Shown here one piece after another: positions 11,856-27,033 of a stretch of DNA of 37,074 nucleotides. This DNA is from Colwellia sp. GTDB taxonomy: Bacteria; Pseudomonadota; Gammaproteobacteria; Enterobacterales; Alteromonadaceae. Made by a program: the position numbers and the translations under genes. How positions within the stretch are numbered: the first letter of the stretch is position 1; every line of letters begins with the position of its first letter. The stretch spans positions 1-37,074 of the forward strand of contig JAPHTO010000167.1 of NCBI GenBank assembly GCA_026196955.1, in the 5' to 3' direction. Under the pieces are notes generated by a model that was given only the letters and a program-made list of their open reading frames with translations, was not told where the DNA came from and ran no database searches.

Positions 11856-12195
11856 AACGTTAATGACTCTTTGAAAAAATATAATTGAAATAGATATAAG
11901 CTAAATTTATGAAAGATACAATGATTTTTCTATTAGATTTTAGTATGAAATTGGAGTTTTTCTACAAGCCACTCTGTTAAGTAACTGTAATTAATCTATA
12001 AAAAATATTATTCCTGTTTAGTTAATAGTTATATTTCTTGTGTGAATGATGGTAATAGTAATTATATATTTCATAAATACTGCTGTGTTGGCTATTATTT
12101 TTGTTGTCCGGTGTGATTGCTTTCCAAGTGAGTTACATCAACCCAATTAGTGATACAACTTAGATTAAAGTTAAATAAGACCATTGGAGAATATT
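11856..12195. promoter_or_regulatory. Divergent intergenic region between the LysR gene and aceA
   Basis: 340 bp of AT-rich DNA with no credible ORF. It must contain the promoters of both divergent genes and, by analogy with other LysR regulators, probably a binding site. I could not identify a convincing T-N11-A dyad or sigma-70 promoter by eye. The aceA ribosome-binding site (TGGAGA, 12185-12190) closes it. Confidence 0.5.
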
Positions 12196-13794
12196 ATGTC
12201 TAATTATCAAAGTGCAATAGAAGCGGTTCAAGCAATTAAAGCAAAAGCAGGCAGCTCATGGGATCCTATTAATCCTGAATCTGTAGCCCGTATGCGTACA
12301 CAGAATAGATTCAAAACTGGTTTAGAAATAGCTCAGTACACTGCAGACATTATGCGTGCTGACATGGCTGCATTCGATGCAGACAAGACTAAATACACAC
12401 AATCTCTAGGTTGCTGGCATGGTTTTGTTGGCCAACAAAAAATGATCTCTATTAAGAAGCATTTTAATGGTCAAACAGATCGTCGTTACTTATACCTTTC
12501 TGGTTGGATGGTTGCTGCATTACGCTCTGAGTTTGGTCCACTTCCTGATCAGTCAATGCACGAAAAAACTTCTGTAGCCTCATTGGTTGAAGAGCTATAC
12601 ACCTTCTTACGTCAAGCTGATGCACGTGAACTAGGTGGCCTTTTCCGCGAATTAGACGCAGCGAAAGCGGCTGATGATCAAGCAAAAGCGGCTGACATTC
12701 AAAATCAAATTGATAACCACGTGACTCACGTTGTGCCAATTGTTGCTGACATCGATGCCGGTTTTGGTAACGCTGAAGCGACATATCTAATGGCTAAGCA
12801 AATGATTGAAGCCGGTGCTTGTGCTCTTCAAATTGAGAACCAAGTAGCTGATGAAAAACAATGTGGTCACCAAGACGGTAAAGTAACGGTACCTCATGCA
12901 GACTTCCATGCAAAAATTCGCGCTTTACGCCATGCTTTCTTAGAGCTAGGTATCGATAACGGTTTAATTGTAGCGCGTACTGACTCTGAAGGTGCTGGTC
13001 TTACAAAAGAGATTGCAGTTGTTAAAGAGCCAGGCGATTCTGGCGATATCTATAACTCTTACTTAGACGTTGAAGAAATCGATGTAGCTGATATGGCTGA
13101 AGGTGATGTATGTTTCAACCGTGATGGTAAGCTTGTTCGTCCTAAGCGTTTACCTTCAGGTTTATACCAATTCCGTCAAGGTACTGGTCATGAGCGTTGT
13201 GTATTTGACTGTATCGGTGCACTTAATGCGGGTGCTGATTTACTTTGGATTGAAACGGCAGTACCTACAGTACACGAAATCAAAGGTATGATGGATGATG
13301 TTCGTAAAGTTCACCCAGATGCGAAACTTGTTTATAACAACTCTCCATCTTTCAACTGGACGTTAAACTTCCGTCAACAAGCCTATGACGCAATGGTTGA
13401 AGCAGGCGAAGATGTTTCTGCATACGACCGCTCTAACTTAATGAGTGCTGAATACGATGAGACTGAACTTTCTGCTGTAGCAGATGAACGAACTCGTACC
13501 TTCCAAGCTGATACGGCACGTGAAGCGAATGTATTCCATCACTTGATTACGTTACCAACTTACCATACTACGGCGTTGTCTGTAGACAACCTAGCGAAAG
13601 AGTACTTTGGTGAACAAGGCATGCTTGGTTACGTTAAAAACGTTCAGCGTGAAGAAATCCGTCAAGGTATAGCCTGTGTTAAACATCAAAACATGTCAGG
13701 CTCTGATATGGGTGATGATCACAAAGAATATTTTGCTGGTGAGAATGCACTTAAAGCGGGTGGCGCGAAAAACACCTCTAACCAGTTCAACTAA
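12196..13794 (+). CDS. aceA: Isocitrate lyase (large ~530-aa type)
   Basis: A 532-aa enzyme that splits isocitrate into succinate and glyoxylate, the first step of the glyoxylate shunt. The ATG at 12196 is preferred over an in-frame TTG at 12184 because TGGAGA sits 6 bp before it. Visible motifs are GCWHGFVGQQ, VADIDAGFGNAEATYLMAK, the active-site signature KQCGHQDGKVTVPH, IVARTDSEGAGL and YNNSPSFNWT. The KQCGHQ form and the length match the large isocitrate lyases of Pseudomonas and cold-adapted Colwellia rather than the 434-aa E. coli form. It pairs functionally with glcB in the same region. Confidence 0.97.
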   Translation: MSNYQSAIEAVQAIKAKAGSSWDPINPESVARMRTQNRFKTGLEIAQYTADIMRADMAAFDADKTKYTQSLGCWHGFVGQQKMISIKKHFNGQTDRRYLYLSGWMVAALRSEFGPLPDQSMHEKTSVASLVEELYTFLRQADARELGGLFRELDAAKAADDQAKAADIQNQIDNHVTHVVPIVADIDAGFGNAEATYLMAKQMIEAGACALQIENQVADEKQCGHQDGKVTVPHADFHAKIRALRHAFLELGIDNGLIVARTDSEGAGLTKEIAVVKEPGDSGDIYNSYLDVEEIDVADMAEGDVCFNRDGKLVRPKRLPSGLYQFRQGTGHERCVFDCIGALNAGADLLWIETAVPTVHEIKGMMDDVRKVHPDAKLVYNNSPSFNWTLNFRQQAYDAMVEAGEDVSAYDRSNLMSAEYDETELSAVADERTRTFQADTAREANVFHHLITLPTYHTTALSVDNLAKEYFGEQGMLGYVKNVQREEIRQGIACVKHQNMSGSDMGDDHKEYFAGENALKAGGAKNTSNQFN

Positions 13795-14075: not shown

Positions 14076-16574
14076 TTGCAGTCTTTTTCATCGAAACAAT
14101 TATTATTACTCAACACCAATGCTGAACGACTCGCAACACTAAATGCGTTGTTAGTTGAAAGCACTCAATTCAATATTTTGACCGCGTCATCCACGCGAGG
14201 CGCAATAGACATTTTAAAAACAGAGCCAATTGACTATGTTGTTAGTAATATCAACCTAGATAATTTTGATGGTTGGCGTTTAGCCAGAATGGTTCGCTCT
14301 GGGGTATTGAAATGCGCTGCAGATACTCCTTTTGTGGTGGTGGCCAATACCTGGTGTGAGCATCTTGCTAGCGCTACTGCCCGTGAGTTTGGTATTAACC
14401 GTTTAATTGCTTTTTCAGAGCATGACAAATTATTAAACATTATTAATGAAAACCAACTCACTCCCCTTGAGGACATGGAAAAAACATCAGTACTGGTGAT
14501 TGAAGATAATCCTGATACTCGTCATTTAGTGAGCAGGATTTTGACAAGTCGTTTTACCATTGATAGTGCAGAAAATGGTGAACTGGGTCTAGCGCTGTGG
14601 CGTAAAAAAAATTATTCATTAGTCTTGCTTGATGTCATGCTACCAGGCATGTCAGGTAATCAAGTACTTGATATTATCATGCAAGAAAACCCATCGCAGT
14701 CTGTAGTCATTATGACAGCCAATCACACCATGGAATTGGCAGAAGAATTAATGCTCAAAGGAGCCGCAGATTTTGTTACTAAGCCTTTTAGAGCTGAGCA
14801 ACTTCGCCGCGTTTGTGAAACCGCATCAAGACGTGAAGATTTTATCATTAGTAACTTACAATTTGCTGATAAAGTTGAATCGCTAAATCAAAGTCGCGCA
14901 CAATACAAGCAGGTATCAGAGCAGCATCAAAATTTATTAGATCAACTTGGCTCCATTATTATTGAGCTTGATAATGAAGGTCATATTTGCTTTTTAAATA
15001 AAGCATGGGAGAAGTTTACTGGTTATTCAATCGATGAGTCACATCAACGTTCATTGTTAGATTTCATGGAAAAGCCTCAAACTGCGGGTAGCTATATTTC
15101 TAACGAATTGAAAACTATTCTTTCAGGCTCTGTTCAATCACATCATTTTGAATTTAAACTAAAAAACAAATTCAATGAAGAGTTGTGGGTTGAAGCACGT
15201 TTTGAAATTACCACCGCAAAAGATCATAAAAGTCACAGTATTTCAGGGACGATAGACAACGTAACTTCACGTAAAAAAGCGCAAAATGATCTTGAATATT
15301 TAGCCATGCATGATGGATTAACGGGCTTATTTAATCGTTTGTATTTTGAAACAGAATTGAAGCAATTTACGGCAACAGCAGCGCGAGGTAATGGTCCTCA
15401 TGCGTTACTTTATTTAGATCTAGACCGCTTTAAAGTGATAAATGATACCTTAGGGCATCATCACGGTGATACAGTTTTACGTAATATTTCAGAATTAATA
15501 CACTCTCGGTTAAGAGAAAGTGATTTTATTGCGCGCATTGGCGGTGATGAATTTGCTTTATTATTCCCCAATACAAATCAAGAAACGGCACTGACACTAG
15601 CCACCAATATTTGTAAATTATTAGATGATTATCAATGTAAAATTGAAGGGCAAGTTTTTAAAGTTAACTGCTCTATTGGTATCGCTGAAATTGGTGGTGA
15701 GGACTTTTCTGGAGAAGAGTTTGCCGCTGAAGAGTATATGAAAAGGGCTGATATTGCCTTATATGCAGCCAAGAAACAAGGGCGAAATTTAGCGCATATA
15801 TATAGCCAACATGATGCTTTAAGTAAAGATTTACAAGCAAGCCTTGAATGGGCGAGAACGCTACATCAAGCTGTAGCTGATGATAATTTAGTGTTGCACT
15901 TTCAGCCTATTATTAACATTGCCACTAAAGAAGTTGCGTATTATGAGGCGTTAGTTAGATTAGAGCTCGACGGTAACATAATACCACCTGGTGAATTTAT
16001 TCCTGCGTTAGAGCGAGAAGGTGACATGAGCTTACTCGACAGGCAAGTGATCCGCAAAGCTATATATTATTTAGCACAGCATACTGAATTAAATAAAATC
16101 GCAATTAACCTATCTGCGCAAGGGTTTAGTGAAGAGCGTTTATTGCCGCTGATTAAAGATAAATTAGAAGAATATAATGTTAATCCTAATCGTATTATTT
16201 TTGAATTAACGGAAAGTGCAAGTTTAAGTAATATTACCGCGACACAAACGATGATTGAAAAGCTCAGCGCTTTAGGCTGTGCTTTTTCTATTGATGATTT
16301 TGGTACTGGTTTTAGTACCTTCAGTTATTTGAAACAACTTCCTGCTCAATCAGTAAAAATAGACGGCTCATTTATTGTTGATTTAGCTACCAACCCCGTT
16401 GATTTAGCACTCGTTAAAGCTATTTATGAAGTGGCTACCGCTTTAGGCAAAAAAACAGTGGCTGAATTTGTAGAAAATGAAGAAACCCTACGTATATTAG
16501 CCGAAGTTGGGGTGACATATGCACAAGGTTATCATTTAGGAAAACCCAAGCCAGTAGATGAAATATTTAGCTAG
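14076..16574 (+). CDS. Response regulator with two receivers, PAS, GGDEF and EAL domains
   Basis: An 832-aa c-di-GMP signalling protein. The start is TTG at 14076, supported by TAGGAA ~6 bp upstream. The next in-frame ATG is ~70 codons inside. Residues ~8-125 look like a receiver whose phospho-acceptor position is Asn58 and whose acidic pocket and conserved Lys are missing. Residues ~138-250 are a normal receiver (IEDN, Asp186 in LLDVMLPG, Lys236 in VTKPF). A linker coiled coil and a PAS domain (~285-400) follow. The GGDEF domain has GGDEF at 489-493 and an RxxD inhibitory site at 480-483. The EAL domain has Glu624-Ala-Leu, AINLSAQ, ELTES, DDFGTGFS and KID. Both catalytic halves look intact, so net activity is unpredictable. 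A ThDP enzyme follows 62 bp later. The histidine kinase at 22350-23915 is the nearest candidate partner. Confidence 0.93.
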   Translation: MQSFSSKQLLLLNTNAERLATLNALLVESTQFNILTASSTRGAIDILKTEPIDYVVSNINLDNFDGWRLARMVRSGVLKCAADTPFVVVANTWCEHLASATAREFGINRLIAFSEHDKLLNIINENQLTPLEDMEKTSVLVIEDNPDTRHLVSRILTSRFTIDSAENGELGLALWRKKNYSLVLLDVMLPGMSGNQVLDIIMQENPSQSVVIMTANHTMELAEELMLKGAADFVTKPFRAEQLRRVCETASRREDFIISNLQFADKVESLNQSRAQYKQVSEQHQNLLDQLGSIIIELDNEGHICFLNKAWEKFTGYSIDESHQRSLLDFMEKPQTAGSYISNELKTILSGSVQSHHFEFKLKNKFNEELWVEARFEITTAKDHKSHSISGTIDNVTSRKKAQNDLEYLAMHDGLTGLFNRLYFETELKQFTATAARGNGPHALLYLDLDRFKVINDTLGHHHGDTVLRNISELIHSRLRESDFIARIGGDEFALLFPNTNQETALTLATNICKLLDDYQCKIEGQVFKVNCSIGIAEIGGEDFSGEEFAAEEYMKRADIALYAAKKQGRNLAHIYSQHDALSKDLQASLEWARTLHQAVADDNLVLHFQPIINIATKEVAYYEALVRLELDGNIIPPGEFIPALEREGDMSLLDRQVIRKAIYYLAQHTELNKIAINLSAQGFSEERLLPLIKDKLEEYNVNPNRIIFELTESASLSNITATQTMIEKLSALGCAFSIDDFGTGFSTFSYLKQLPAQSVKIDGSFIVDLATNPVDLALVKAIYEVATALGKKTVAEFVENEETLRILAEVGVTYAQGYHLGKPKPVDEIFS

Positions 16575-16636
16575 AAAAATTTAACAGAAAAGATCAAAAG
16601 CCCCCTTAATACTCAAAATAATAACAGAGGTGTTTA

Positions 16637-18445
16637 ATGAACTTATCTTTACAAGCAAGCGAAAACTATGAAAAGGAAATCCAGATAGAAGAAGGATGGG
16701 ATAACGCGGATTTAATTATTGAGTTTTTAAAAACACTTGAAGTTGAATACATTTTTGGTGTTCCTGGGGGGGCAATAGAGCCATTATATAATGCGCTTGC
16801 TCGCGGAGTTAAGCATGGAGCTCCGAAGATTATTGTTGCGCGTCATGAAGCTGGCGCTGCTTTTATGGCCGAAGGCTATGCCAGAGAAACAGGCAAGCTA
16901 GGTGTTTGCTGCGCAACAACAGGACCGGGCTCAACCAATTTGCTAACGGGCGTTGCATCAGCTTATGCTGATAATGTGCCTATGATGGTGATTACAGCAC
17001 AAACGCCATTACCCAAGTTTGGTCGCAATGCTTTACAAGAGTCTTCTTGTACCGCCATCGACACAGTGGCTATTTTTCGACATTGCACACGCTACAGCAC
17101 ATTGATTTCTCACACCGAACAAATGCAAACTAAGCTTATTGCCGCTATTATGGCTGCAAACCGCACACCTAATGGCCCTGTGCATATCAGTATTCCATCA
17201 GATATATTACGACAACCAGTAACCAAAAACTCGGAAATGAAAATTGGTCGTTTAGTTCAAGAATTTACCTTAACAGATAATAATGCTGTAGATAAATTGA
17301 CTCAAATGCTTTCCAATACTTGGCGTGTGGCATTGTTTTTAGGTAAAGGGTGCGGGCCTGCTATTGATGAAATCATGGAATTTTCAGATCTTACCCATGC
17401 ACCTATTGTAACAGGGCCTTCAGGTAAACGCTGGGTAGACGGTTATCATACGCGTTATCGTGGCGTTTATGGCTTTGCCGGCCATCAAAGTGCACAAGAA
17501 ACCATGGAAGACGACACCATCGACTTACTCATTGCTGTAGGTACCCCCATCACTGAGCTTGGTACTAGTGGCTGGCATTCACATTTGCTCGGTGACAGGT
17601 TAGTACATATAGATTCAACGATTGAGCATTTTTCTCGTACACCTATGGCTCAACATCATGTTTGTGGCGATCTAAAGTCTATATTTAAACAACTTAATGA
17701 CAATGTTCGTCAGGGGTTAAAGTGGGGACGTTCATGGGGATCTGTCGATCCTATACAAATAAAGTTTCTTGAGAAAAAATCCTCTGCTATCGATCATGGT
17801 TATCAAATCACAGTGAATGATCCAAGCGCGTGTCATTCTGATGTTATCCCCTTAAAGCCCCAGCGAGTGGTAACTGAATTTTCTCAAAACATTCCCTCTC
17901 ATTTTCGATTACACCTAGACGCGGGTAATACTTGGGCATGGTTTACTCATTATTGTCATCGAAAAAACTCACAAGGCCATTACCATATTGCCATGGGCTT
18001 TGGCTCTATGGGCTGGGCAATAGGTGCGTCAATAGGTACTTGCTTTGGCAGTAAACAACCTTCTGTATGTATTACTGGTGATGGTAGCTACTTAATGTCA
18101 GGCCAAGAAATAACCGTGGCTTTACAGCATAAAATTCCGGTTATTTTTGTTGTGTTAAACGATAGTGAATTGGGAATGGTTAAGCATGGGCAAAAATTAG
18201 GTGGGGCAGAGGAAATAGGCTTTGAATTACCTGAAATAGACTACGCTATGATGGCACAGGCTATGGGAGTAGAAGGGTTCACTGTTAAGACGCCAGAAGA
18301 GTTAATCGCCATTGACTGGCAACGTTTAGGCGATAAACAGGCGCCAACAATGATCAATGTTATTATTGACCCAAATGAAGTTCCGCCAATGGGTCAACGA
18401 GTTAAAGGCTTGGCTGATAATGAATCAGCTACGCCAGGAGGCTAA
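16637..18445 (+). CDS. Acetolactate-synthase-like ThDP-dependent enzyme
   Basis: A 602-aa protein of the acetolactate synthase/pyruvate oxidase superfamily. The N-terminal Pyr domain has FGVPGGAIEPLYNAL and the activating Glu71 in ARHEAGAAFMAEGYAR, then TTGPGSTNLLTG. A central FAD/nucleotide-like domain follows. The C-terminal PP domain has the ThDP/Mg motif GDGS (481-484) ending in LND (507-509). GAGGTG sits 7 bp before the ATG. Family members decarboxylate a 2-keto acid and transfer or release the unit. No ilvN/ilvM-type regulatory subunit or other branched-chain gene is nearby, so routine isoleucine/valine synthesis is unlikely. It probably shares a transcript with the upstream GGDEF/EAL gene. 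Its stop is only 6 bp from the stop of a convergent citrate-synthase-like gene. Confidence 0.88.
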   Translation: MNLSLQASENYEKEIQIEEGWDNADLIIEFLKTLEVEYIFGVPGGAIEPLYNALARGVKHGAPKIIVARHEAGAAFMAEGYARETGKLGVCCATTGPGSTNLLTGVASAYADNVPMMVITAQTPLPKFGRNALQESSCTAIDTVAIFRHCTRYSTLISHTEQMQTKLIAAIMAANRTPNGPVHISIPSDILRQPVTKNSEMKIGRLVQEFTLTDNNAVDKLTQMLSNTWRVALFLGKGCGPAIDEIMEFSDLTHAPIVTGPSGKRWVDGYHTRYRGVYGFAGHQSAQETMEDDTIDLLIAVGTPITELGTSGWHSHLLGDRLVHIDSTIEHFSRTPMAQHHVCGDLKSIFKQLNDNVRQGLKWGRSWGSVDPIQIKFLEKKSSAIDHGYQITVNDPSACHSDVIPLKPQRVVTEFSQNIPSHFRLHLDAGNTWAWFTHYCHRKNSQGHYHIAMGFGSMGWAIGASIGTCFGSKQPSVCITGDGSYLMSGQEITVALQHKIPVIFVVLNDSELGMVKHGQKLGGAEEIGFELPEIDYAMMAQAMGVEGFTVKTPEELIAIDWQRLGDKQAPTMINVIIDPNEVPPMGQRVKGLADNESATPGG

Positions 18446-18451
18446 ATCCAT

Positions 18452-19300
18452 TTATTTGCGCTTAGGTAGCCCTCTAGGCGCAACGCCTGTGTATTCAATA
18501 TCTTCACACGCGAGGGGAAGAAACCCGCCGGCAATGTCGTCATTGGCTTCTGCGAAACACGCATGAACGCCTGAATGTACCCAAGTACTATAAATGCGGT
18601 ACATTTCTGTTGGTGTAAAGCCTTGATCGGTAAGAAAAGCCGTGACATAGCCAACATAGTTCATATTCTCTTGGTAATGCTCAGCAAGCGTTGTATGAAT
18701 TTTAAAAGCGAGCTTTAAGTGCTCGCCTTCTTTAAATCCTAGCTTTTTAGTTACGATTTCCATTGCTTCTACGCGCTCATCTCCTGTTGCTATTGGCCGT
18801 GCATAGCCTACGATAACAGGTTTAGTGCCAGGTTTTGTCTGCTTAGTTGCAAGCTCCTTCTTAATAATATCTAATGGCTCCATCCCTTGTTTATGCCACT
18901 TTAATGCCCGTTCAATAAACTCAGCACCGCCAGAAATTGAGCCGGGACCATACATTCTAGAGTCCGCTGAAAGAATTCCAGCGGCAACCCCCGCTACAGG
19001 AGAGCCCTTTACTGCGCCTATTAATGAGCCGTTTTGGTTGCACCAAATGCGAGAGTCAGGCCAACTTAAGCAAATGAAACTTGCCTCAAACCAGTCTGCA
19101 AGTACTTTACTTGGCATTTTACGGGTGACATTTAAAATAAGCGTTTGAAAAAAGGACTTTTTACCAACAAGATCATCCATCATAGAATAGCCGCAATTGT
19201 ATATGGCTTCGCCTATTCGCCAACCCCCTCGGTTTGTTGTTATTTTGCCTCGCTTAATTAGCCACTGTTCATTGGTCATTTTTGATTTCATAATCTTCAT
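18452..19300 (-). CDS. Short citrate-synthase-superfamily protein B
   Basis: About 282 aa. Alternative starts at 19291 and 19279 are possible, and none has a clear Shine-Dalgarno. The start overlaps the end of protein A by 32 bp, so the two are translationally coupled. Citrate-synthase features are spread through the chain: GGWRIGEAI, WPDSRIWCNQNGSL, AGILSADSRMYGPG, ISGGAEF (where LHGGANE is usual), GYARP (where GFGHR is usual), VHACFAEA and the C-terminal YTGVAPRGLP. By eye the three classical catalytic positions His/His/Asp are Ser123, Arg168 and Asn214. At this length it resembles citryl-CoA-lyase-sized proteins rather than the ~430-aa synthase. It may form a hetero-oligomer with protein A. 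Function unknown. Confidence 0.78.
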   Translation of the reverse strand: MKIMKSKMTNEQWLIKRGKITTNRGGWRIGEAIYNCGYSMMDDLVGKKSFFQTLILNVTRKMPSKVLADWFEASFICLSWPDSRIWCNQNGSLIGAVKGSPVAGVAAGILSADSRMYGPGSISGGAEFIERALKWHKQGMEPLDIIKKELATKQTKPGTKPVIVGYARPIATGDERVEAMEIVTKKLGFKEGEHLKLAFKIHTTLAEHYQENMNYVGYVTAFLTDQGFTPTEMYRIYSTWVHSGVHACFAEANDDIAGGFLPLACEDIEYTGVAPRGLPKRK

Positions 19301-20093
19301 CTTTTAAAAAAGGTATATCAGTTATCGGCTTGTTGGAAAATTGGATTCCATGAGCAAAAGCGCCTGGGCTAGCTAGCATTTGAAAAATGCCACTGCCAAG
19401 TCGAGGCTCAATATTTAAATCTAATAAAACTGCGGCTACAACGCCAGCTAACCGCCAGCCACAGCTATTATCTATTGGAAGAAAAGTTACAAAATTATTT
19501 GCCCAATTGAGGTAGCCATTATCTGGTGAAGACTGTAGTAGCTTGTCTTTAGCTTTAATAAGAAAAGGAGATTGTCCTCTAAAGTCTGTACCAAAGCCTG
19601 GTGCCAGTATCCAATCTTCTTCCTTGGGATCAGGTGTTGATTTAATGCAATTTTCAGCGACTGTTTTAGGAGATTCTCCAGCGTGTTTTCTTAAAAAGCG
19701 CATAGCACTTTCAACTTCTTTTGAGCCTCCATACGCTCCTCCCATGCCCATAATGGCGATAGGGAGTATATGATTGACATCTGTTCTGCCGACCGCAGCA
19801 TTGGCTGCCGTTCTTGAAGACGAGTGGCGAGGGCCTAGGTTGATCAAGAAAACTGATAATTGTCTAAGTAAATTCTTTTGTTCATCAGTAGGTAGCTCGC
19901 CGCTATAAAGTAAGAAAAAAACGTCGTTATAGTCGCAAGAATCCATAAGTTCCATTACATCGTATCCATGTATACGTGTTTCTTTTACTAAGAATTCATT
20001 ATCATCTGAGGGGAGCTCAGAGGTGATCTCACTCTTAATTTTTGATGTAAAGCTGTCATTTCGACTTTCTATTTTTACTTTTCTGTTAGTCAT
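19269..20093 (-). CDS. Short citrate-synthase-superfamily protein A
   Basis: A 274-aa protein starting 4 bp after the TonB-receptor stop. The N-terminal RIHGYDVMELM and FFLLYSGELPTDEQ are typical of the citrate synthase/citryl-CoA lyase fold. The core has GPRHSSSRTAANAAVG (88-102), GGAYGGSKEVESAM (118-131), APGFG (164-168), IDNSCG with Asp208, and the C-terminal AFAHGIQ. Compared by eye with citrate synthase, the first catalytic His is Tyr121, the His after PGFG is Thr169, and the Asp is kept. It is a full short-form domain, not half of a broken gene. It probably acts with protein B, but the reaction is unknown. It belongs to the operon with the TonB receptor and sensor kinase. Confidence 0.8.
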   Translation of the reverse strand: MTNRKVKIESRNDSFTSKIKSEITSELPSDDNEFLVKETRIHGYDVMELMDSCDYNDVFFLLYSGELPTDEQKNLLRQLSVFLINLGPRHSSSRTAANAAVGRTDVNHILPIAIMGMGGAYGGSKEVESAMRFLRKHAGESPKTVAENCIKSTPDPKEEDWILAPGFGTDFRGQSPFLIKAKDKLLQSSPDNGYLNWANNFVTFLPIDNSCGWRLAGVVAAVLLDLNIEPRLGSGIFQMLASPGAFAHGIQFSNKPITDIPFLKDEDYEIKNDQ

Positions 20094-20097
20094 TGTT

Positions 20098-22326
20098 TTA
20101 TATGCCTTTAGCTATCTGTAAATACACACTACGACCTTGAATAGGGTAATCTCCTATAGGGCCAAGGGCTTCAGAGACTAATGGGTGTGTTGGATCAAAA
20201 GCCTTTTCATCAAAGATATTTTTACCTAATAGCGACAACTTCCAGCTACCAGCATTATCTATCGACCAATGAAGAGCCATATCAACGGTTGCATAGTTAT
20301 CTAGCATTTTTCTTGAATCTTCAATTTCACGATTTCTTTTGCCAATCCAATTTAATTTTGTATTAAAGGCAATTTGCTCTGAAAAGTTAGTTTCATATAT
20401 TGCACTGAATAATTGCTCTGGTGCTAGGGGAGTAGTCACTTTGCTATCCTTATCTTCAGAATTTTGCCATGAATAATTAAGGGCTAGGGAGTGGTTGTTA
20501 TACTTCCAACTGAATTCAGTTTCAAAGCCATAACCTTGCTGATCTTTGGCATTTTGCGCCGTTGTAGTGGTTGCACCTGGATCGGCAACAAATTCAATTA
20601 AGTTTTTACTTTCATACCGAAACATATTCATTGACCAGTGAATATTATTTTGCAAATGCTGATTAAGACTAAACTCTATAGTGTCAATTGTTTCAGGGTC
20701 TAAATTCGGGTTACCTATACCAACGGGGTTATTAATGGCATAAAGAGTATCAAAAGCAGGTGCTCTAAATGCTCTACCATACAATAATTTTGTTGTTGTA
20801 CTTTGGTTTACTTCCCAAACCAAAGCCATGCGAGGATTTATAGTGGAGCCAAAGTCATCATAATAGTCATAACGTATGCCGGTAGTGAGCTCCCAATCAT
20901 TAGCAAACTGCCATTGATCTTGAATGCTAATATAGGCGTTTTCTCTATCGACATCCTTAACAAAGATGTAGGGAGTATTCGTGACATCGGTTAGCGTACC
21001 GTCGATAACCATGACTTGTCCCATGGCAAATAGTTCAGCCATTTTTTCAGTATCTATAACGCCTGGACCAAAATTTTTCTCTTCATTAGCAGTAAGCTTT
21101 CTTTGAGATATGCCCGCCCCAAACCGTAATTTATGCTCGTTTAGGTCGGTAGACAGTAAAGTAAAATCAAAAGAATTAAGTTTTTCGGTAGGTTGGGGGT
21201 TACCCAAGAAGCCATCAATAAATAAGCCCATGCCAATGGGGGCAACTAAATTTAAATTACCATCGGCCCCTATGGGTAATAATGCATTCTCTGGGAGTAC
21301 AGAAAATTTCGCTCTATCTTTCATTTTATAAAAACTATATTGAGCGCTTGCCTCCCATGTGGATATGTTCCAATCATAATTCAAATCAAATTGATAAATA
21401 GTTGTATTTTGCGTGCCTGTTGGATCTAATGCTTGTCCGGCCCCGGCACCAACTCCTGCATTATGATTGTCCCAATACCAAAAGTTAGACTCGATATTGT
21501 TAAAAGCACCGGTGAGCCGGATATCAATAATGTCGTAATTGGTATTTAACGCTTCAGGTGCTTTAGAGGCTGATGTACCTAAAACATCATCAAATATTGA
21601 TTGTAAATCACGAGTTAATATTCGGTCTTCATCACCGTCACTTTTCAATGTTTCTATAGCAAGCCCGAATTCTGCATTACCTAGTTTAAAAGCATTTTGA
21701 TACCAAAGGTTTGATGAGTTAAAACTACCATAACTCGCGCCATAAGTGGCGCTTTGTATTTCAGTTAGATCTTTGGTAATGACATTGATTACACCTGCGT
21801 ATGCATCAGCACCATAGACAGCAGATCCAGGACCGCGGATAACTTCAATTCTTGATATCGAATGTACTGGCATTTTAAATGCCTGTGGGCGCGCTCCAGT
21901 ATATTCTTCTCTGACTGGTAAGCCATCTATGAGAAAAAGAATTTGTGGGTTTTGGTCGGTGTGAATTCCTCTAATTGAAAAAGAGCTATTTAGTCTATTA
22001 AATGGGGAAGGGTAAACATGAAGTCCAGGAACATTTTCTAAGGCTTCCGATACGGTTTTTGCGCCCATACTTTCTATCTGTTTGGCAGTAATAACAGTGG
22101 CTACCGAAGGTGCTTTACGAATAAGCATCTTGTTTCCCGTGGCAATGCTTACAAACTCTTCATCACCATAAAAATCTTCTAGTGAGTCATCTATTTCATC
22201 GTTAAATTCATAATTTTCGTCATCATAGGGCTCATCATTAAAGCCGGAGCTGGCTAATAATAAAGGTGAGTTCATAGCAAAAGCAGCCATTAATGAGAGT
22301 GTTAAAATTTTTCGCGTAAAATACAT
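20098..22326 (-). CDS. TonB-dependent outer-membrane receptor
   Basis: About 742 aa from the ATG at 22326, with AAGGA 7 bp upstream. An in-frame ATG at 22347 sits right at the kinase stop and is less likely. The signal peptide is MYFTRKILTLSLMAAFAMNS. A short acidic stretch (residues ~30-55, many Asp/Glu) comes before the plug domain: APSVATVITAKQIESMGAKTVSEALENVPG, then SIRGI and IEVIRGPGSAVYGADAYAGVINVITK. The 22-strand barrel ends in a hydrophobic C-terminus (YLQIAKGI). The plug resembles FepA/BtuB/CirA-like receptors, but the ligand is not predictable. It lies between a sensor kinase and citrate-synthase-like genes, so it may import the signal or substrate of this cluster. Confidence 0.93.
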   Translation of the reverse strand: MYFTRKILTLSLMAAFAMNSPLLLASSGFNDEPYDDENYEFNDEIDDSLEDFYGDEEFVSIATGNKMLIRKAPSVATVITAKQIESMGAKTVSEALENVPGLHVYPSPFNRLNSSFSIRGIHTDQNPQILFLIDGLPVREEYTGARPQAFKMPVHSISRIEVIRGPGSAVYGADAYAGVINVITKDLTEIQSATYGASYGSFNSSNLWYQNAFKLGNAEFGLAIETLKSDGDEDRILTRDLQSIFDDVLGTSASKAPEALNTNYDIIDIRLTGAFNNIESNFWYWDNHNAGVGAGAGQALDPTGTQNTTIYQFDLNYDWNISTWEASAQYSFYKMKDRAKFSVLPENALLPIGADGNLNLVAPIGMGLFIDGFLGNPQPTEKLNSFDFTLLSTDLNEHKLRFGAGISQRKLTANEEKNFGPGVIDTEKMAELFAMGQVMVIDGTLTDVTNTPYIFVKDVDRENAYISIQDQWQFANDWELTTGIRYDYYDDFGSTINPRMALVWEVNQSTTTKLLYGRAFRAPAFDTLYAINNPVGIGNPNLDPETIDTIEFSLNQHLQNNIHWSMNMFRYESKNLIEFVADPGATTTTAQNAKDQQGYGFETEFSWKYNNHSLALNYSWQNSEDKDSKVTTPLAPEQLFSAIYETNFSEQIAFNTKLNWIGKRNREIEDSRKMLDNYATVDMALHWSIDNAGSWKLSLLGKNIFDEKAFDPTHPLVSEALGPIGDYPIQGRSVYLQIAKGI

Positions 22327-22349
22327 AAGGAGTTCCTTAGTAAGCATTA

Positions 22350-23915
22350 TTATTTATCTTTATTTAATGGTAATTTCACAGTAAATATTGAACCGACACC
22401 TAATTCACTGCTAACACTGAGTTTCCCGCCCATGAGCTGGCAAAAACTTTGGGTGATTGCCATTCCTAACCCTGTACCTTCAAACTGTCTAGTTTGACTG
22501 CCATCAACCTGAGTAAATTGCTCAAATATCAAGTTTAGTTTATCTTTTGCAATACCAACACCGGTATCGGTAATTGAAAAATGTAGAAAGTGTTTATCGT
22601 TACTAATCGCAAAAGTAATAATGCCATTTTTAGTAAATTTGCAGGCATTACTGAGCAAATTTAAAAATATTTGCATTAATTTTTGTCTGTCAAAAGTAAG
22701 GATAGGCGTTAGTGAGCCTATGTTTACAACGAGCTCATTATTATTTGCTGTTGCCATCGGTTGAACAGTATCAATAGTTTCATCAATTAAATTTTTGATA
22801 TTGATGGCTTTTAAATATAAGTCCATACGCCCAGCTTCAATTTTAGCGAGGTCGAGAATATTATTTATTAACGCAAGCAAGTTATGGGCACTGCGGATAC
22901 TTTTATTTAAATCTTCTGCTTGTGCGTCCATACACTCTAATTCTAAGTCTTCTCGCACAAGATCGGTATAACCAATAATGGCCTGTAAAGGCGTGCGTAA
23001 TTCATGGCTGATATTGGCTAAAAATTCAGATTTATGGCGGCTAGCCGTTAACGCACTATCTCTAGCAACGACTAGCTCTAGTGTTCTAATTTCAACTTCA
23101 GATTCTAAGGTATCGCGATTTTTTGCTAGAGCAATGTTTTGTTGCTCAAGTGTTGACATCATTTGATTATATATTTGTGCTATCTGCTTTATTTCTAATG
23201 GGCCTTTAACCGATGCCTTTGAATAAAGTCCTGAGTCTCTCGCAGTTTCCATAGTTTGAGACAAAACTAATAATGGCTCTATCATGCGGTTGATTACTAA
23301 GCGGATTAGCAAGGCTAAAATAAAGGCGATGATGGCGCCTATTGATAGATTATTGATAAAAATAGTGCGCTGAATTTGGTGTAAGGCACTTTTATTAAAC
23401 TTAATAATGACATAGCCCAAGGTTTTTAACTCAGCAGTTTCATCATTGGGATCTAGCATATCAGCGTCATAAATATCTTCTGAAAAAATAACAGGAGCGC
23501 TGAAAGTCCAGAAATCTTCATGCTCTGCGACTAGTTGGCTTTCTTTTATTATATTTTCGCTTAGCTCATTTTTTTGGAAGGATAGTTGCTCTGTAGAAGA
23601 GATAAGTTTTTGACCATCGCTTTTATATATAGCCACTCCAATGACAGAGGTAAATCCTAGTGTTTGCTTAATGGCTTCCTGCGCATTCTCTTCACTTCCT
23701 GTTAATAGCGCTAATACGGCTTGATCGGCAAAGTTGTTAGTCACTTGCCCATGATTATTTATGGTGGTTTTTCTCAAAATTTGACTGGATTGCCAAGCGG
23801 TAAGCGTTGAAGTGACGAGTGTTAATAGTATGATGCTAGCAACAATGATAGTTAAAAGTTGTTGCTTAAAGCTAACGGACGGGCTAAGAACTTTTTGTTT
23901 TGTTTTCATCAACAT
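22350..23915 (-). CDS. Membrane sensor histidine kinase (CHASE8-like sensor, HAMP, HisKA, HATPase)
   Basis: A 521-aa kinase. TM1 is around QQLLTIIVASIILLTLVTS. A ~140-residue periplasmic domain begins like CHASE8 (NFADQAVLALLTGSEENAQEAI). TM2 is around SIGAIIAFILALLIRL. HAMP and a coiled coil follow, then the H-box FLANISHELRTPLQAIIG and the HATPase N/G boxes NLLSNACKFT, ITDTGVGI and FEGTGLGMAI. There is no attached receiver, so it needs a separate response regulator. The start is at 23915 or 23909, both with weak ribosome-binding sites. It begins 11 bp after the periplasmic-binding-protein stop and ends next to the TonB receptor, so all three are probably one transcript. Confidence 0.92.
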   Translation of the reverse strand: MLMKTKQKVLSPSVSFKQQLLTIIVASIILLTLVTSTLTAWQSSQILRKTTINNHGQVTNNFADQAVLALLTGSEENAQEAIKQTLGFTSVIGVAIYKSDGQKLISSTEQLSFQKNELSENIIKESQLVAEHEDFWTFSAPVIFSEDIYDADMLDPNDETAELKTLGYVIIKFNKSALHQIQRTIFINNLSIGAIIAFILALLIRLVINRMIEPLLVLSQTMETARDSGLYSKASVKGPLEIKQIAQIYNQMMSTLEQQNIALAKNRDTLESEVEIRTLELVVARDSALTASRHKSEFLANISHELRTPLQAIIGYTDLVREDLELECMDAQAEDLNKSIRSAHNLLALINNILDLAKIEAGRMDLYLKAINIKNLIDETIDTVQPMATANNNELVVNIGSLTPILTFDRQKLMQIFLNLLSNACKFTKNGIITFAISNDKHFLHFSITDTGVGIAKDKLNLIFEQFTQVDGSQTRQFEGTGLGMAITQSFCQLMGGKLSVSSELGVGSIFTVKLPLNKDK

Positions 23916-23926
23916 AATTTCAAATA

Positions 23927-24913
23927 CTACTGCGGAAAAGTGAGCTTAAATAACTGTTGTTGCTCAGAGCTATACTTTAGCCCTAAGTGTGCAGCAGTAC
24001 GTAAATTAACAGCGAGTAACGTAGATTTTAATGCCGCAAAATTCTTCTGCTCTGGCTGTTTTTCTAGCTCCTGTACCATGGTGAATAAATGCTTACCTAA
24101 GGCAAAATTGTCAGGGTAAGTAGAAAATAGTACGCCCCGTTTTGCATGAGATGGCTTGCTAGAGAATACGACAATTTCTTTAGCCCAAGCTTTCTCTAAT
24201 ATAAGTGGTAAGGTAATTTTGTCATGTGATGAAATACGATCAAATGGTAGCCATATCGCATCCTCACTTAATTCATCTGAAGTAAAAATTTGTTGGTAGA
24301 AAGCAATTGCTGCTGCGGTATCGCTAACTTTTTGCAGGTTTAAAGTTAAACCTTTTTTCAGTGCTGCTTCTTTTGCTAATTCAATTAACCAAGCACTTCT
24401 TTCACTGTAGGCAACATGAATTTTTTTTATCTTGGGAGCCACTTGTTTTAGATAATCAAATAAGTATGCAGGATCAGTAATTAAGCTGATGCCAGAAACA
24501 CCATTAGGCATTATGGGTAAAGCCCCTGAGACAATTTGAAATTTCTTTGCTTGCTTATCTAAGGTAAATGTAGATAACTCTTTGGCTAGCTTCCAGCCTG
24601 AACGTCCCAAAACAATCACTTTGTTTATGTGTTTTTGCTTGAGGTTATTGGCTATTTCTTCAACATTGAAGTTTTTCTTAATTATGAATTCTTCAATATC
24701 AATGGTTTGGTTATTTTCTTGTGCTGCTTCGATACTTCCTGAAATGATACTTTGATAGATAGAGCTATAAGGCTCTCTGGCTTGAGGGTAAAAAATGGCA
24801 ACCTTGTTTGCGAATTCATCTTCGATATTTTGGGCGTAGGCATTACTGCCTAAAAAAAAGCGCGTAATTAAAAAGAGTAAGATAAAAAAAGTTTTTGCAA
24901 AACAACTATTCAA
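23927..24913 (-). CDS. Periplasmic substrate-binding protein of the PF04392 (ABC_sub_bind) type
   Basis: A 328-aa protein with a TTG start at 24913: an in-frame stop lies three codons upstream, no early ATG exists, and AAAGGTAA is 9 bp before the TTG. The signal peptide runs through FFILLFLITRFFLGSNAYAQ. The mature protein has VAIFYPQAREPYSSIYQSI, KVIVLGRSGWKLA and the C-terminal LLAVNLRTAAHLGL, typical of uncharacterised periplasmic binding proteins with two alpha/beta lobes. No ABC permease or ATPase is nearby. It is followed at 11 bp by a sensor kinase, so it probably presents a ligand to the kinase rather than to a transporter (inference). Confidence 0.82.
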   Translation of the reverse strand: MNSCFAKTFFILLFLITRFFLGSNAYAQNIEDEFANKVAIFYPQAREPYSSIYQSIISGSIEAAQENNQTIDIEEFIIKKNFNVEEIANNLKQKHINKVIVLGRSGWKLAKELSTFTLDKQAKKFQIVSGALPIMPNGVSGISLITDPAYLFDYLKQVAPKIKKIHVAYSERSAWLIELAKEAALKKGLTLNLQKVSDTAAAIAFYQQIFTSDELSEDAIWLPFDRISSHDKITLPLILEKAWAKEIVVFSSKPSHAKRGVLFSTYPDNFALGKHLFTMVQELEKQPEQKNFAALKSTLLAVNLRTAAHLGLKYSSEQQQLFKLTFPQ

Positions 24914-25092: not shown

Positions 25093-25872
25093 TTAAAAGT
25101 TATAAATTAAGGTCATTGAAGTTTCAGTATTAGTATTTTCAAACTCAGGCTCCACTTCAGTATCGTAATCAATACGTAAAGCAAATTTCAGTTGTAATGC
25201 ATCAATTAATTGTGCAGTAACAGAAGTTTCAGATTTATAAACACTATTTTCACCAGACTTCGTCGCTTGTTTTGCTACAAGGTGTTGCTTGAATTCAACA
25301 TAGTCATTGAATTTATGTGTATAAAGTGCCTGTGCTTGAACAATAAGATTAGTACTGCTGTTTGATGGATCAGTATCTGTGGCGCGGGTAACATCATATT
25401 TTACACCTGGGCCGATATCAGCGAAAAGTGATGATGTTTCGGTTTTATACCATTCACGACCCCAACCCGCTGAAAATGAACTTTGAGATTCAAAACCACT
25501 GAATTTATCTTGCTCGTGAGCAAGGTTACCGTATAGGTAGTTTTTGCCTTCAGCACCTATGGTGTAGTTAGTTTGAGTGGTTATATCCCATTTGTTATCC
25601 GTAGAAACAAATTCTTTATTGCCATCATCATCTTCTTTTTCAAGCTTTTTTGCTAAAATGTTGAAGGCAACAACAGAGCGCCATTTGTCTTTTTCATGTT
25701 TCAAATTAAAGCCGGCTTTTATATCAGCGCTTTTGGTATTGCCGGTTTTATATAGAAAGCCTAATTCAGCTGAAGCTGTAAATTCAGGTTTTTCTGCTGC
25801 TTCTTCTGCGAAGGTAGCAAATGAAGCTAGCGGAAGTAAGCATAATGAGGCTAGCGTAAGTTTACGATCCAT
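25093..25872 (-). CDS. DUF481 (YdiY-like) outer-membrane beta-barrel protein, copy 1
   Basis: 259 aa with a signal peptide (MDRKLTLASLCLLPLASFATFAEE). The mature chain has alternating polar/hydrophobic strands such as ASAELGFLYKTGNTKSADIKAG, SSFSAGWGREWYKTETSSLFADIGPG and a C-terminal aromatic residue (TLIYNF), typical of a small outer-membrane barrel of the DUF481 family. AAGGG is ~8 bp upstream of the ATG. It is a clear paralogue of the gene just upstream on the same strand (94-115 bp between them). Family function is poorly known, and some members respond to salt or magnesium. Confidence 0.88.
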   Translation of the reverse strand: MDRKLTLASLCLLPLASFATFAEEAAEKPEFTASAELGFLYKTGNTKSADIKAGFNLKHEKDKWRSVVAFNILAKKLEKEDDDGNKEFVSTDNKWDITTQTNYTIGAEGKNYLYGNLAHEQDKFSGFESQSSFSAGWGREWYKTETSSLFADIGPGVKYDVTRATDTDPSNSSTNLIVQAQALYTHKFNDYVEFKQHLVAKQATKSGENSVYKSETSVTAQLIDALQLKFALRIDYDTEVEPEFENTNTETSMTLIYNF

Positions 25873-25966
25873 GATTTTCCCTTGTAATGATAGCGGTATA
25901 GTAAAAATAAAGGAATTATAGCAGCTGTGAATTTAATGTTAAATGGCTGTCACGATTAAAGCGAAA

Positions 25967-26851
25967 TTAGAAGCTATAAACTAAGGTTACGGCTGTTTGA
26001 GTATCCATATTTTCTTTATTTTCCTCCACTTTAGTATTGTAATCTACAGTAAAAGTAAACTTTAATTGTAGCGTTGAAATTAGCTTAGTGGTGACGCTAG
26101 TTTCAGCTTTATAAACACTGTTATCGGCAGCGCTTAGGGCATGCTTTGCACTTAAAAACTGTTTAAATTCAACATGCTCGCCTAGTTTTCTGATATATAA
26201 GGCTTGCATTTGTACAATCCAGGAGTCTTCAGTTTTTTCTGGATCAGTTTCTGTTTTTCTGAATAGATCTCGCTTGTAACCTGGGCCTATATCAGCCCAA
26301 AGTGATGCTTGTTTACTTTTATACCAGTGGCGACCCCAACCAGTTGACACAGAGCTTTGGCTGACAAAACTGTTGAATTCACTGTCTTCATACCAAACAT
26401 TGCCAAAGATATAATTTTTTTCACCGCTATCTAAACTGTAGTTGGTTTGTGAGGTAAAGGTCCATTTTTGATCTGTGGTTTCGAAGTGGGTATCACCATT
26501 ACTATCTTTAACATCGGCTTTTTTTATTAGTAAATCAACATTTAGTAAGCTTAGCCAGCGCCCGTTTTCAAAGTGTAAATCCACACCACTTTTCATATCT
26601 CCACTGTTGCTATTTCCAGTTTTGTATAAAAAACCTAGCTCAGCAGAGCCGGTAAGCACTGGGGTAAGCATCACGGGCTCGGCTTCTTCAGCTTGTTTTA
26701 AACTCGTTAATATGTCTGCGGCTGTTGCCGCTGTACCCAAGTGTTTTTCACTTGCCTGAGCTTTATTATTCTCACCTTGAGAATTACTTCCTTGTGCATA
26801 AGCATTAATAGACAAGAGAAAAAATGAAATAAAAGCTAAATAACGGATCAT
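25967..26851 (-). CDS. DUF481 outer-membrane beta-barrel protein, copy 2
   Basis: About 294 aa from the ATG at 26851, with GAGAAAG just upstream. A longer TTG start at 26875 is less likely because it would put a charged segment before the signal peptide (MIRYLAFISFFLLSINAYAQ). A Gln/Glu/Ala-rich linker (~residues 20-60), absent from copy 1, precedes the barrel. The barrel matches copy 1 in many stretches: SAELGFLYKTGNS, TFTSQTNYSLDSGEKNYIFGN, SSVSTGWGRHWYKS, ADIGPGYKRD, VEFKQFL and the final LVYSF. This is a tandem duplication with strong divergence. Confidence 0.87.
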   Translation of the reverse strand: MIRYLAFISFFLLSINAYAQGSNSQGENNKAQASEKHLGTAATAADILTSLKQAEEAEPVMLTPVLTGSAELGFLYKTGNSNSGDMKSGVDLHFENGRWLSLLNVDLLIKKADVKDSNGDTHFETTDQKWTFTSQTNYSLDSGEKNYIFGNVWYEDSEFNSFVSQSSVSTGWGRHWYKSKQASLWADIGPGYKRDLFRKTETDPEKTEDSWIVQMQALYIRKLGEHVEFKQFLSAKHALSAADNSVYKAETSVTTKLISTLQLKFTFTVDYNTKVEENKENMDTQTAVTLVYSF

Positions 26852-27033
26852 TTCTTTCTCAATTTTATGGCGCAAAAAAATAGCTAAGGAGGCATTCGTA
26901 AGAGAAAGGCTTAGCTAGTTAAATTATTTTGATTTAAAAGCAAATGTACAAGCGAGGCGTAACAACAGCTATAGGTAAATCACAACATTAAAGAAGATTA
27001 TTATAATGAAGTTATGTTGAATTTAAAGGGGGG

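Follow-up and report, generated by a model that had tools for sequence, protein, structure and literature searches.

A recurrent gene cluster from Colwellia with a putative ThDP-dependent carboligase, a TonB receptor and a sensor kinase: a candidate system for making and sensing a signal molecule

Introduction

On a contig of Colwellia sp., genes for carbon–carbon bond enzymes lie beside genes for outer-membrane uptake, sensing and c-di-GMP turnover (Table 1). The locus raises the question of whether the two halves serve one function and, if they do, whether the molecule that would be sensed is the product or the substrate of the enzymes. An earlier note on the window, i.e., the whole 37,074-nucleotide stretch that was analysed, had described the gene order, spacing and motifs of positions 14076..24913, and this description was confirmed, including the minus-strand gaps of 11 bp, 23 bp or less and 4 bp and the overlap of 32 bp. 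Judged from the search listings, openly licensed PubMed Central yielded no description of the locus.

Table 1. Genes of the locus, with the evidence for each assignment.
Feature	Coordinates	Strand	Evidence
REC-PAS-GGDEF-EAL regulator	14076..16574	+	Pfam and translation: two receiver domains, PAS, GGDEF, EAL
Putative ThDP-dependent carboligase, HKA-synthase-like	16637..18445	+	Profile scores, Pfam, structural relatives, pocket residues
CSb, citryl-CoA-lyase-fold protein with altered active site	18452..19300	-	Profile score, fold match, residue counts
CSa, citryl-CoA-lyase-like paralogue and likely partner of CSb	19269..20093	-	Profile score, Pfam, residue counts
TonB-dependent outer-membrane receptor	20098..22347	-	Plug and barrel by Pfam; SIATG motif at residue 67
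BarA-like membrane histidine kinase	22350..23915	-	Profile score, Pfam; HELRTP at residue 304
SBP, periplasmic binding protein (PF04392, TrpX-like)	23927..24913	-	Profile score, Pfam; adjacent to the kinase

Extent of the Locus and Its Recurrence

Between positions 11900 and 27000 no Rfam match reached the gathering threshold, and no tRNA or tmRNA was found across the whole window. When six related loci were searched by tblastn, the flanking isocitrate lyase gene was present in two (L001 and L002) and the flanking DUF481 gene in L002 only; both were rejected as members of the module because they are so rarely kept. LrgB is encoded in the Colwellia flank in the window, L001 and L002.

The grouping extends beyond the Colwelliaceae and is common to many distantly related bacteria. 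Among 61 regions with CSb, CSa was found in 58, the ThDP protein and the TonB receptor in 50 each, the SBP together with the kinase in 39, and all six families in 35. As the regions were selected through CSb matches, these frequencies are conditional on CSb; several of the regions stem from one genus, the loci counted also served to build the family profiles, and the bit scores of fragments within one region were summed before thresholding. The regions fetched came from the six related loci, nine further matches outside the genome itself, 45 of the 49 genomes of the class sample with CSb (own genome included; G536, G561, G562 and G701 were left out) and 15 more, with some shared between these sets. 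Another 11 regions fell outside the 61, and since two of them (L122 and L123) proved to be contig-edge pieces of the true family, the control consisted of the remaining nine (L112–L120), all of them with a lone, distant citryl-CoA-lyase-like gene; in these no module partners were found at the same thresholds. Within this control, L114 holds a distant, sub-threshold ThDP match of 273 bits, and L116 one REC domain.

The earlier note had proposed that both halves serve one pathway, and had named, as the result that would speak against it, that the enzyme genes occur independently of each other and of the sensor/TonB genes in most relatives. In 369 genomes of the class, CSb and the ThDP protein occurred together in 41 (CSb only in 3, ThDP only in 7), and CSb and the SBP in 39 (CSb only in 5, SBP only in 8). 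Independent occurrence was therefore not seen, and the strong co-occurrence supports a common function. Of the genome searches underlying these counts, one was run at E 1e-170 and another at E 1e-25, and five genomes with weak CSb matches (G484, G605, G659, G705 and G755, of which G605 has the SBP) were dropped beforehand. At the family level, all three proteins were found in 23 of the 34 taxonomic families that hold any of them, so that candidate synthase and receptor genes are co-inherited at both levels, with phylogeny ignored here as in the Fisher values.

Could the genes merely be neighbours with separate functions, whose lasting proximity reflects common ancestry or co-transfer? The co-occurrence test ignores phylogeny, several genomes carry the parts on separate contigs or loci (L126, L135–L139 and L151–L154), and the pairwise distances of the CS pair are nearly uncorrelated with those of the SBP (0.04–0.14 in 28 loci, 0.18–0.21 in a wider set), which we count against a single system, as we do the absence of the SBP from 8 of 48 genomes with the ThDP protein and of the ThDP protein from 7 of 47 with the SBP. 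However, the co-occurrence persists when the parts lie on separate contigs and when it is counted per taxonomic family, and fusions occur in both the enzyme half and the sensor half (see below), which makes a loose neighbourhood a very improbable explanation. Pairwise distances tie the ThDP protein to the SBP and to the kinase. The 22 of 61 regions in which the SBP/kinase pair is missing from the fetched stretch also count against a single system, though several of their genomes carry that pair elsewhere. A tblastn search of 72,556 plasmid records gave no match to CSb.

The Enzyme Half

The ThDP protein scores 296.8 bits against TIGR00118, below the cut-off of 538, and its own genome encodes two other proteins above that cut-off. 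The residues for ThDP activation are kept (Glu71 in 43/43 proteins; GDG and Asn508 invariant in 35), whereas the acceptor pocket, whose Trp and Arg we assume to act as in E. coli AHAS II, is changed: the Trp of acetolactate synthase is Gly518 in all 43 proteins, and the two Arg positions of ARFDDR hold Arg in 2/43 and 0/43. A housekeeping acetolactate synthase was rejected for these reasons, and ordinary acetolactate-type chemistry finds no support. The nearest solved relatives, in both sequence and fold, are BbmA and CsmA (PDB 8x3x, 8xod and 8x3z), titled “ThDP-dependent HKA synthase”, HKA presumably standing for alpha-hydroxy-beta-keto acid; no paper on these synthases was found in openly licensed PubMed Central. 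Judged by its sequence, the protein is an HKA-synthase-like carboligase rather than an acetolactate synthase.

CSb adopts the citryl-CoA lyase fold. Against NF004869 (cut-off 212 bits), CSb and CSa score 49.8 and 67.6 bits, and CSa reaches 26.0 against a Pfam cut-off of 27. The positions of the His, His and Asp that we take as the catalytic residues of citrate synthase and citryl-CoA lyase were placed through alignments to 6hxp. At or beside the His positions CSb has Tyr117 (56/61) and Arg168 (61/61), and at the Asp position Ala, Gly or Asn in 49/61; CSa has mainly Thr, Pro or Ser there, and the window's own CSa reads Tyr121, Asp170 and Ala216. Because the usual catalytic His and Asp are thus not conserved in either protein, ordinary citrate-synthase chemistry is unsupported for the pair. 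With two citrate synthases above the Pfam cut-off elsewhere in the genome, and given the low scores and lost residues, an ordinary citrate synthase was rejected as the identity of CSa and CSb. Some CSa proteins may retain a nearby His, since one lies near the first catalytic His (column 121) in 17/58 and one column off the second (column 170) in 22/58, and the presence of His248 in 55/58 makes catalysis through other residues possible. CSa, a paralogue of CSb, is likely its partner, and the two may form a complex; compared with the citryl-CoA lyase/ATP-citrate lyase module (6hxp, 6hxn), the present locus has two divergent adjacent paralogues without the conserved His and Asp.

In L083 the ThDP protein and CSa are fused in a single reading frame of 886 aa. 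The CS pair is exchanged in L131, where a methyltransferase is found, and in L132, where a ketosynthase III is found, and both loci retain the SBP, kinase, TonB receptor and ThDP protein. Further enzymes in module regions include SDR, O-methyltransferase, asparagine-synthetase-like and FkbH-like proteins.

The locus might alternatively serve to detect and break down a nutrient or host compound, which the TonB receptor would import, the SBP and kinase would report, and the ThDP enzyme and CSa/CSb would cleave in the cytoplasm. Cleavage of carbon–carbon bonds is possible for ThDP enzymes and citryl-CoA lyases, TonB receptors usually take up scarce external compounds, an enoyl-CoA hydratase that could hint at catabolism recurs in four module regions, and the distant single gene of control region L112 adjoins genes for CoA-transferase III and a LysR protein and looks catabolic (both clusters recur in L120). 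But the replacements of the CS pair are biosynthetic in type, Pfam scans of recurring neighbour clusters revealed no inner-membrane permease except the LrgB of the Colwellia flank, and L104 retains the enzymes with a soluble-looking multi-domain kinase (Ser/Thr kinase/AAA/GAF/histidine kinase, next to a LuxR-type regulator near the ThDP gene, with the same clusters in L105 and L107) in a stretch where neither TonB receptor nor SBP was found. In L145, also lacking matches to these two, a FIST protein and a histidine kinase lie near the ThDP gene; such other sensors, in stretches where receptor and SBP were not found, favour a signalling role. Breakdown seems improbable, and what would be sensed is more likely the product than the substrate.

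The Receiver Half

The SBP gene adjoins the kinase gene on the same strand in 39/39 regions, an arrangement of the LuxPQ/TorTS type. LuxP–LuxQ, which senses AI-2, and TorT–TorS likewise combine a binding protein with a histidine kinase; to our knowledge, their loci contain no synthase and no TonB receptor. The regulator carries an EALVR motif at residue 624 and, as read by eye, a GGDEF motif with an RxxD I-site, and is likely to provide a c-di-GMP output. The c-di-GMP link drawn in the earlier note gains support from L022 and L095, where the kinase is fused with REC-Hpt-REC-GGDEF-EAL in a single protein beside the SBP; in 11 of the 39 SBP regions no GGDEF was found, which counts against a signalling role.

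In the TonB receptor, plug (PF07715, 88.9 bits) and beta-barrel (PF00593, 131.3 bits) were recognised and no further domain was found. Its likeness to models of B12, heme and siderophore receptors, all below their cut-offs, would suit a metallophore or other secreted, chelator- or cofactor-like natural product that is taken up again by the receptor and, on its return, adjusts lifestyle through the SBP and kinase; the varying partner enzymes, and the asparagine-synthetase-like enzyme in three regions, are in line with this. The neighbour clusters scanned, on the other hand, held no permease and no recurring family of peptide-synthetase or siderophore-synthetase type, and we hold such a product to be rather unlikely.

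A Possible Signalling Circuit

The explanation that we prefer for the locus as a whole, with chances evenly balanced, is a system that makes and senses its own signal. By coupling an acceptor with an activated acyl or aldehyde unit, the ThDP enzyme would build a core of the acyloin type (alpha-hydroxy-keto). The molecule would then be completed by CSa and CSb, whose place a methyltransferase or a ketosynthase III would take in other bacteria. Once outside the cell, it would re-enter the periplasm through the TonB receptor and there itself be bound by the SBP, which would then set the kinase; phosphorylation of the REC-PAS-GGDEF-EAL regulator by the kinase would change c-di-GMP. This model builds on the observed co-inheritance, adjacency, ThDP–CSa and kinase–REC-GGDEF-EAL fusions, altered active sites and enzyme exchange. 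Against it we count that small diffusible signals are not usually imported by TonB receptors, and that the scan of recurring neighbour clusters turned up no exporter, although, since each cluster was annotated through one or two of its members and most single neighbours fell outside the scan, an exporter or permease could have escaped.

In CqsA/LqsA alpha-hydroxyketone signalling, the synthase is a PLP enzyme and sensing is by a kinase; the present locus may share the product class and the kinase sensing, but with a ThDP enzyme instead. We know of no autoinducer synthase that resembles the candidate synthases. In NspS–MbaA of Vibrio cholerae (PMC8967002), a periplasmic binding protein passes the status of its ligand, the self-made norspermidine, on to a membrane protein, which in turn controls c-di-GMP. 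There, MbaA is itself a GGDEF-EAL protein, whereas here a histidine kinase would act via a REC regulator or fusion; ligand and proteins differ, and the present locus adds a TonB receptor and synthase-like genes.

More tentatively, and with clearly less than an even chance, the locus may represent a widespread class in which an acyloin-type signal from a ThDP enzyme, finished by exchangeable enzymes (mostly a re-purposed CS pair), meets an outer-membrane-gated receiver of TonB receptor, SBP and kinase that sets c-di-GMP. If true, a signalling chemistry unnamed in the literature searched would be present in at least 28 taxonomic families of one class sample, and in some beyond the class; the outer membrane would act as the gate to its receiver, and the citryl-CoA-lyase fold would have been re-used, as a pair, for a different reaction. 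Among named organisms, module proteins were found in Colwellia maritima, Litorilituus sediminis and Aliikangiella species, and the ThDP protein in Pleionea mediterranea.

Gene content of the locus

On re-examination of the window, the gene order, strands and spacings described in the earlier note were confirmed, and profile searches assigned each gene of the plus-strand pair and the facing minus-strand set to a family (see the table). The two citryl-CoA-lyase-fold proteins, CSa and CSb (the CS pair), are short paralogues; together with the ThDP enzyme, TonB receptor, binding protein SBP and kinase they are called the module here. The nearest named relatives belong to Colwelliaceae. That the CS pair and the ThDP enzyme are housekeeping copies was excluded, because the same genome holds two further proteins above the citrate synthase cut-off and two above the acetolactate synthase cut-off. 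Among six related loci, the flanking isocitrate lyase recurs in L001 and L002, and tblastn found a relative of the two tandem DUF481 genes beside SBP only in L002.

Features of the module locus and its flanks
Feature	Coordinates	Strand	Basis
Isocitrate lyase, PRK06498 type	12184-13794	+	1009 bits, cut-off 446
REC-REC-PAS-GGDEF-EAL regulator	14076..16574	+	Pfam/profile matches
ThDP enzyme, three-domain	16637..18445	+	Pfam/profile matches
CSb	18452..19300	-	Pfam/profile matches
CSa	19269..20093	-	Pfam/profile matches
TonB receptor	20098..22347	-	Pfam/profile matches
Histidine kinase, BarA-like	22350..23915	-	Pfam/profile matches
SBP, PF04392	23927..24913	-	Pfam/profile matches
Two DUF481 genes	25093-26875	-	

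Conservation and co-occurrence

Searches with CSb gave 6 loci in a collection of 84,980 species, and positive genomes numbered 10 of 394 within the order, 49 of 369 within the class and 15 of 398 within the phylum. When 72 regions, the window counted in, were scored with six profiles, 61 held a true-family CSb, and of these 58 also held CSa (57 as a separate ORF, one fused to ThDP), always on the same strand and less than 2.5 kb away. One of the three regions without CSa, L103, belongs to a genome that has CSa at its ThDP locus, L150. ThDP and the TonB receptor were each present in 50 of the 61; SBP was present in 39, the kinase sensor region in those same 39 and adjacent to SBP in every one, and all six families together in 35. 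Four regions from a group outside the class (L108-L111) hold all six, with weak scores for SBP (~102 bits) and kinase (70-82 bits). Two regions from records named Desulfobulbus and Desulfuromonadaceae (L004, L006) have CSa, CSb and the TonB receptor, L004 also ThDP, and SBP was not found in the fetched stretch of either. In the nine control regions, L112-L120, where a distant CSb-like gene stands singly, none of CSa pair, TonB receptor, SBP, kinase sensor and ThDP passed the threshold; L114 has a distant ThDP match of 273 bits, below it. In L112 (Pfam) and L120 (same clusters) the CSb-like gene has a CoA-transferase III and a LysR regulator as neighbours, a different and perhaps catabolic use of the fold. 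Duplications were also seen: L073 has two copies each of ThDP and the TonB receptor, and L020 and L102 each carry a second TonB receptor.

Among the 369 genomes of the class, the SBP profile found 47 positives and the ThDP profile 48; for CSb, 44 were counted (42 strong and two contig-edge pieces, five weak ones left out). With phylogeny ignored, CSb and SBP coincide in 39 genomes (Fisher P 4e-39), CSb and ThDP in 41 (2e-43), and SBP and ThDP in 40 (3e-38). The exceptions are five CSb genomes without SBP and three without ThDP, eight SBP and seven ThDP genomes without CSb, seven SBP genomes without ThDP and eight ThDP genomes without SBP. The earlier note had assigned the enzyme half and the sensor/TonB half to one pathway, and the independent occurrence that would speak against this is not what was found: 36 of the 55 genomes with at least one of CSb, SBP and ThDP hold all three. 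By taxonomic family the numbers are 28 for CSb, 30 for SBP, 29 for ThDP, 23 for all three and 34 for any. In several genomes the parts coincide yet lie on separate contigs or loci (L126, L135-L139, L151-L154).

Exchange of partner enzymes

The exceptions are informative about the function of the module. L131 has no CS pair, and its genes run in series from kinase through SBP, TonB receptor and a SAM methyltransferase to ThDP. In L132 the space between TonB receptor and ThDP is taken by a ketosynthase III and a 131-aa protein that has no Pfam match, and in L133, a stretch without ThDP, a leucine-carboxyl-methyltransferase-type enzyme adjoins the TonB receptor of the SBP-kinase pair. Module regions also contain an O-methyltransferase (L004), SDRs adjoining module genes (L003 by Pfam; same cluster in L005, L006, L025, L072 and L073), asparagine-synthetase-like enzymes (L076 by Pfam; same cluster in L018 and L021) and an FkbH-like protein (L104 by Pfam; same cluster in L105 and L107). 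The CS pair is therefore one among several partners, and the additional enzymes are mostly of biosynthetic types. An enoyl-CoA hydratase in four regions fits this pattern poorly, as does an ABC-F-like ATPase cluster in 10 of 72 regions (8 of 61 CSb regions), which in L100 and L102 has two ABC domains and no membrane part by Pfam. The ATPase regions are L071, L079, L080, L096, L099, L100, L102, L112, L122 and L124, some with the gene directly beside ThDP.

Catabolism by the module enzymes is argued against by the biosynthetic character of the enzymes exchanged for the CS pair, and by the absence of a permease among the recurring neighbours scanned, bar LrgB in a Colwellia-only flank. The missing permease also speaks against a plain metallophore as the product, as does the lack of recurring assembly enzymes among those neighbours.

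Sensor and output

The kinase after SBP is a single polypeptide in L022 and L095 (1,505 and 1,494 aa), with HisKA, HATPase, Hpt, two REC, GGDEF and EAL domains, and from these fused sequences we infer that the separate regulator in the window is likely the partner of its kinase. GGDEF domains occur in 33 and kinase catalytic domains in 46 of the 61 CSb regions, and neither in the nine controls. The output is not always c-di-GMP, since 11 of the 39 SBP regions have no GGDEF within the fetched stretch, and alternatives are present in L085 (a REC-SpoIIE protein) and L089 (a chemoreceptor with CheW and CheR, by Pfam). The chemotaxis genes adjoin the module on the opposite strand in L089 and, by shared clusters, L086 and L092. 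In L104 (same clusters in L105 and L107) the stretch showed neither TonB receptor nor SBP, and CSb is followed by a Ser/Thr-kinase/AAA/GAF/histidine-kinase protein and a LuxR-type regulator. In L145 (Pfam) the ThDP gene adjoins genes for a soluble kinase and a FIST protein, which may form another kind of sensor; a module-type ThDP beside a FIST-type protein and kinase was also recognized in L146 and L151 by inspecting the sequence.

Proposed mode of action

The reading we favour, on which our confidence is evenly balanced, is a system that makes and senses its own compound: the product of the enzymes would leave the cell, the TonB receptor would carry it back in, and the returned product would act through SBP and the kinase on c-di-GMP. 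No exporter was seen among the recurring neighbour clusters scanned. LuxP-LuxQ is similar in working mode; the module adds a TonB gate and a candidate synthase, and is not a member. NspS-MbaA (PMC8967002) also works in a way resembling that proposed here; the module differs from it by the same two additions and does not belong to it. No published description of the module was found in the openly licensed PubMed Central papers searched; that it represents a new class of signal is a tentative suggestion, and somewhat doubtful.

An exploratory comparison of pairwise distances in 28 loci with all six families, species-tree signal included, gave rank correlations of 0.60-0.81 among CSa, CSb and the TonB receptor and of 0.42-0.58 among ThDP, SBP and kinase. 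Against the first group the kinase reached 0.33-0.40 and SBP 0.04-0.14. SBP could thus recognise a ThDP-made core, and the TonB receptor the finished molecule. With L108-L111 added the pattern was less sharp (TonB receptor-SBP 0.58, TonB receptor-ThDP 0.52).
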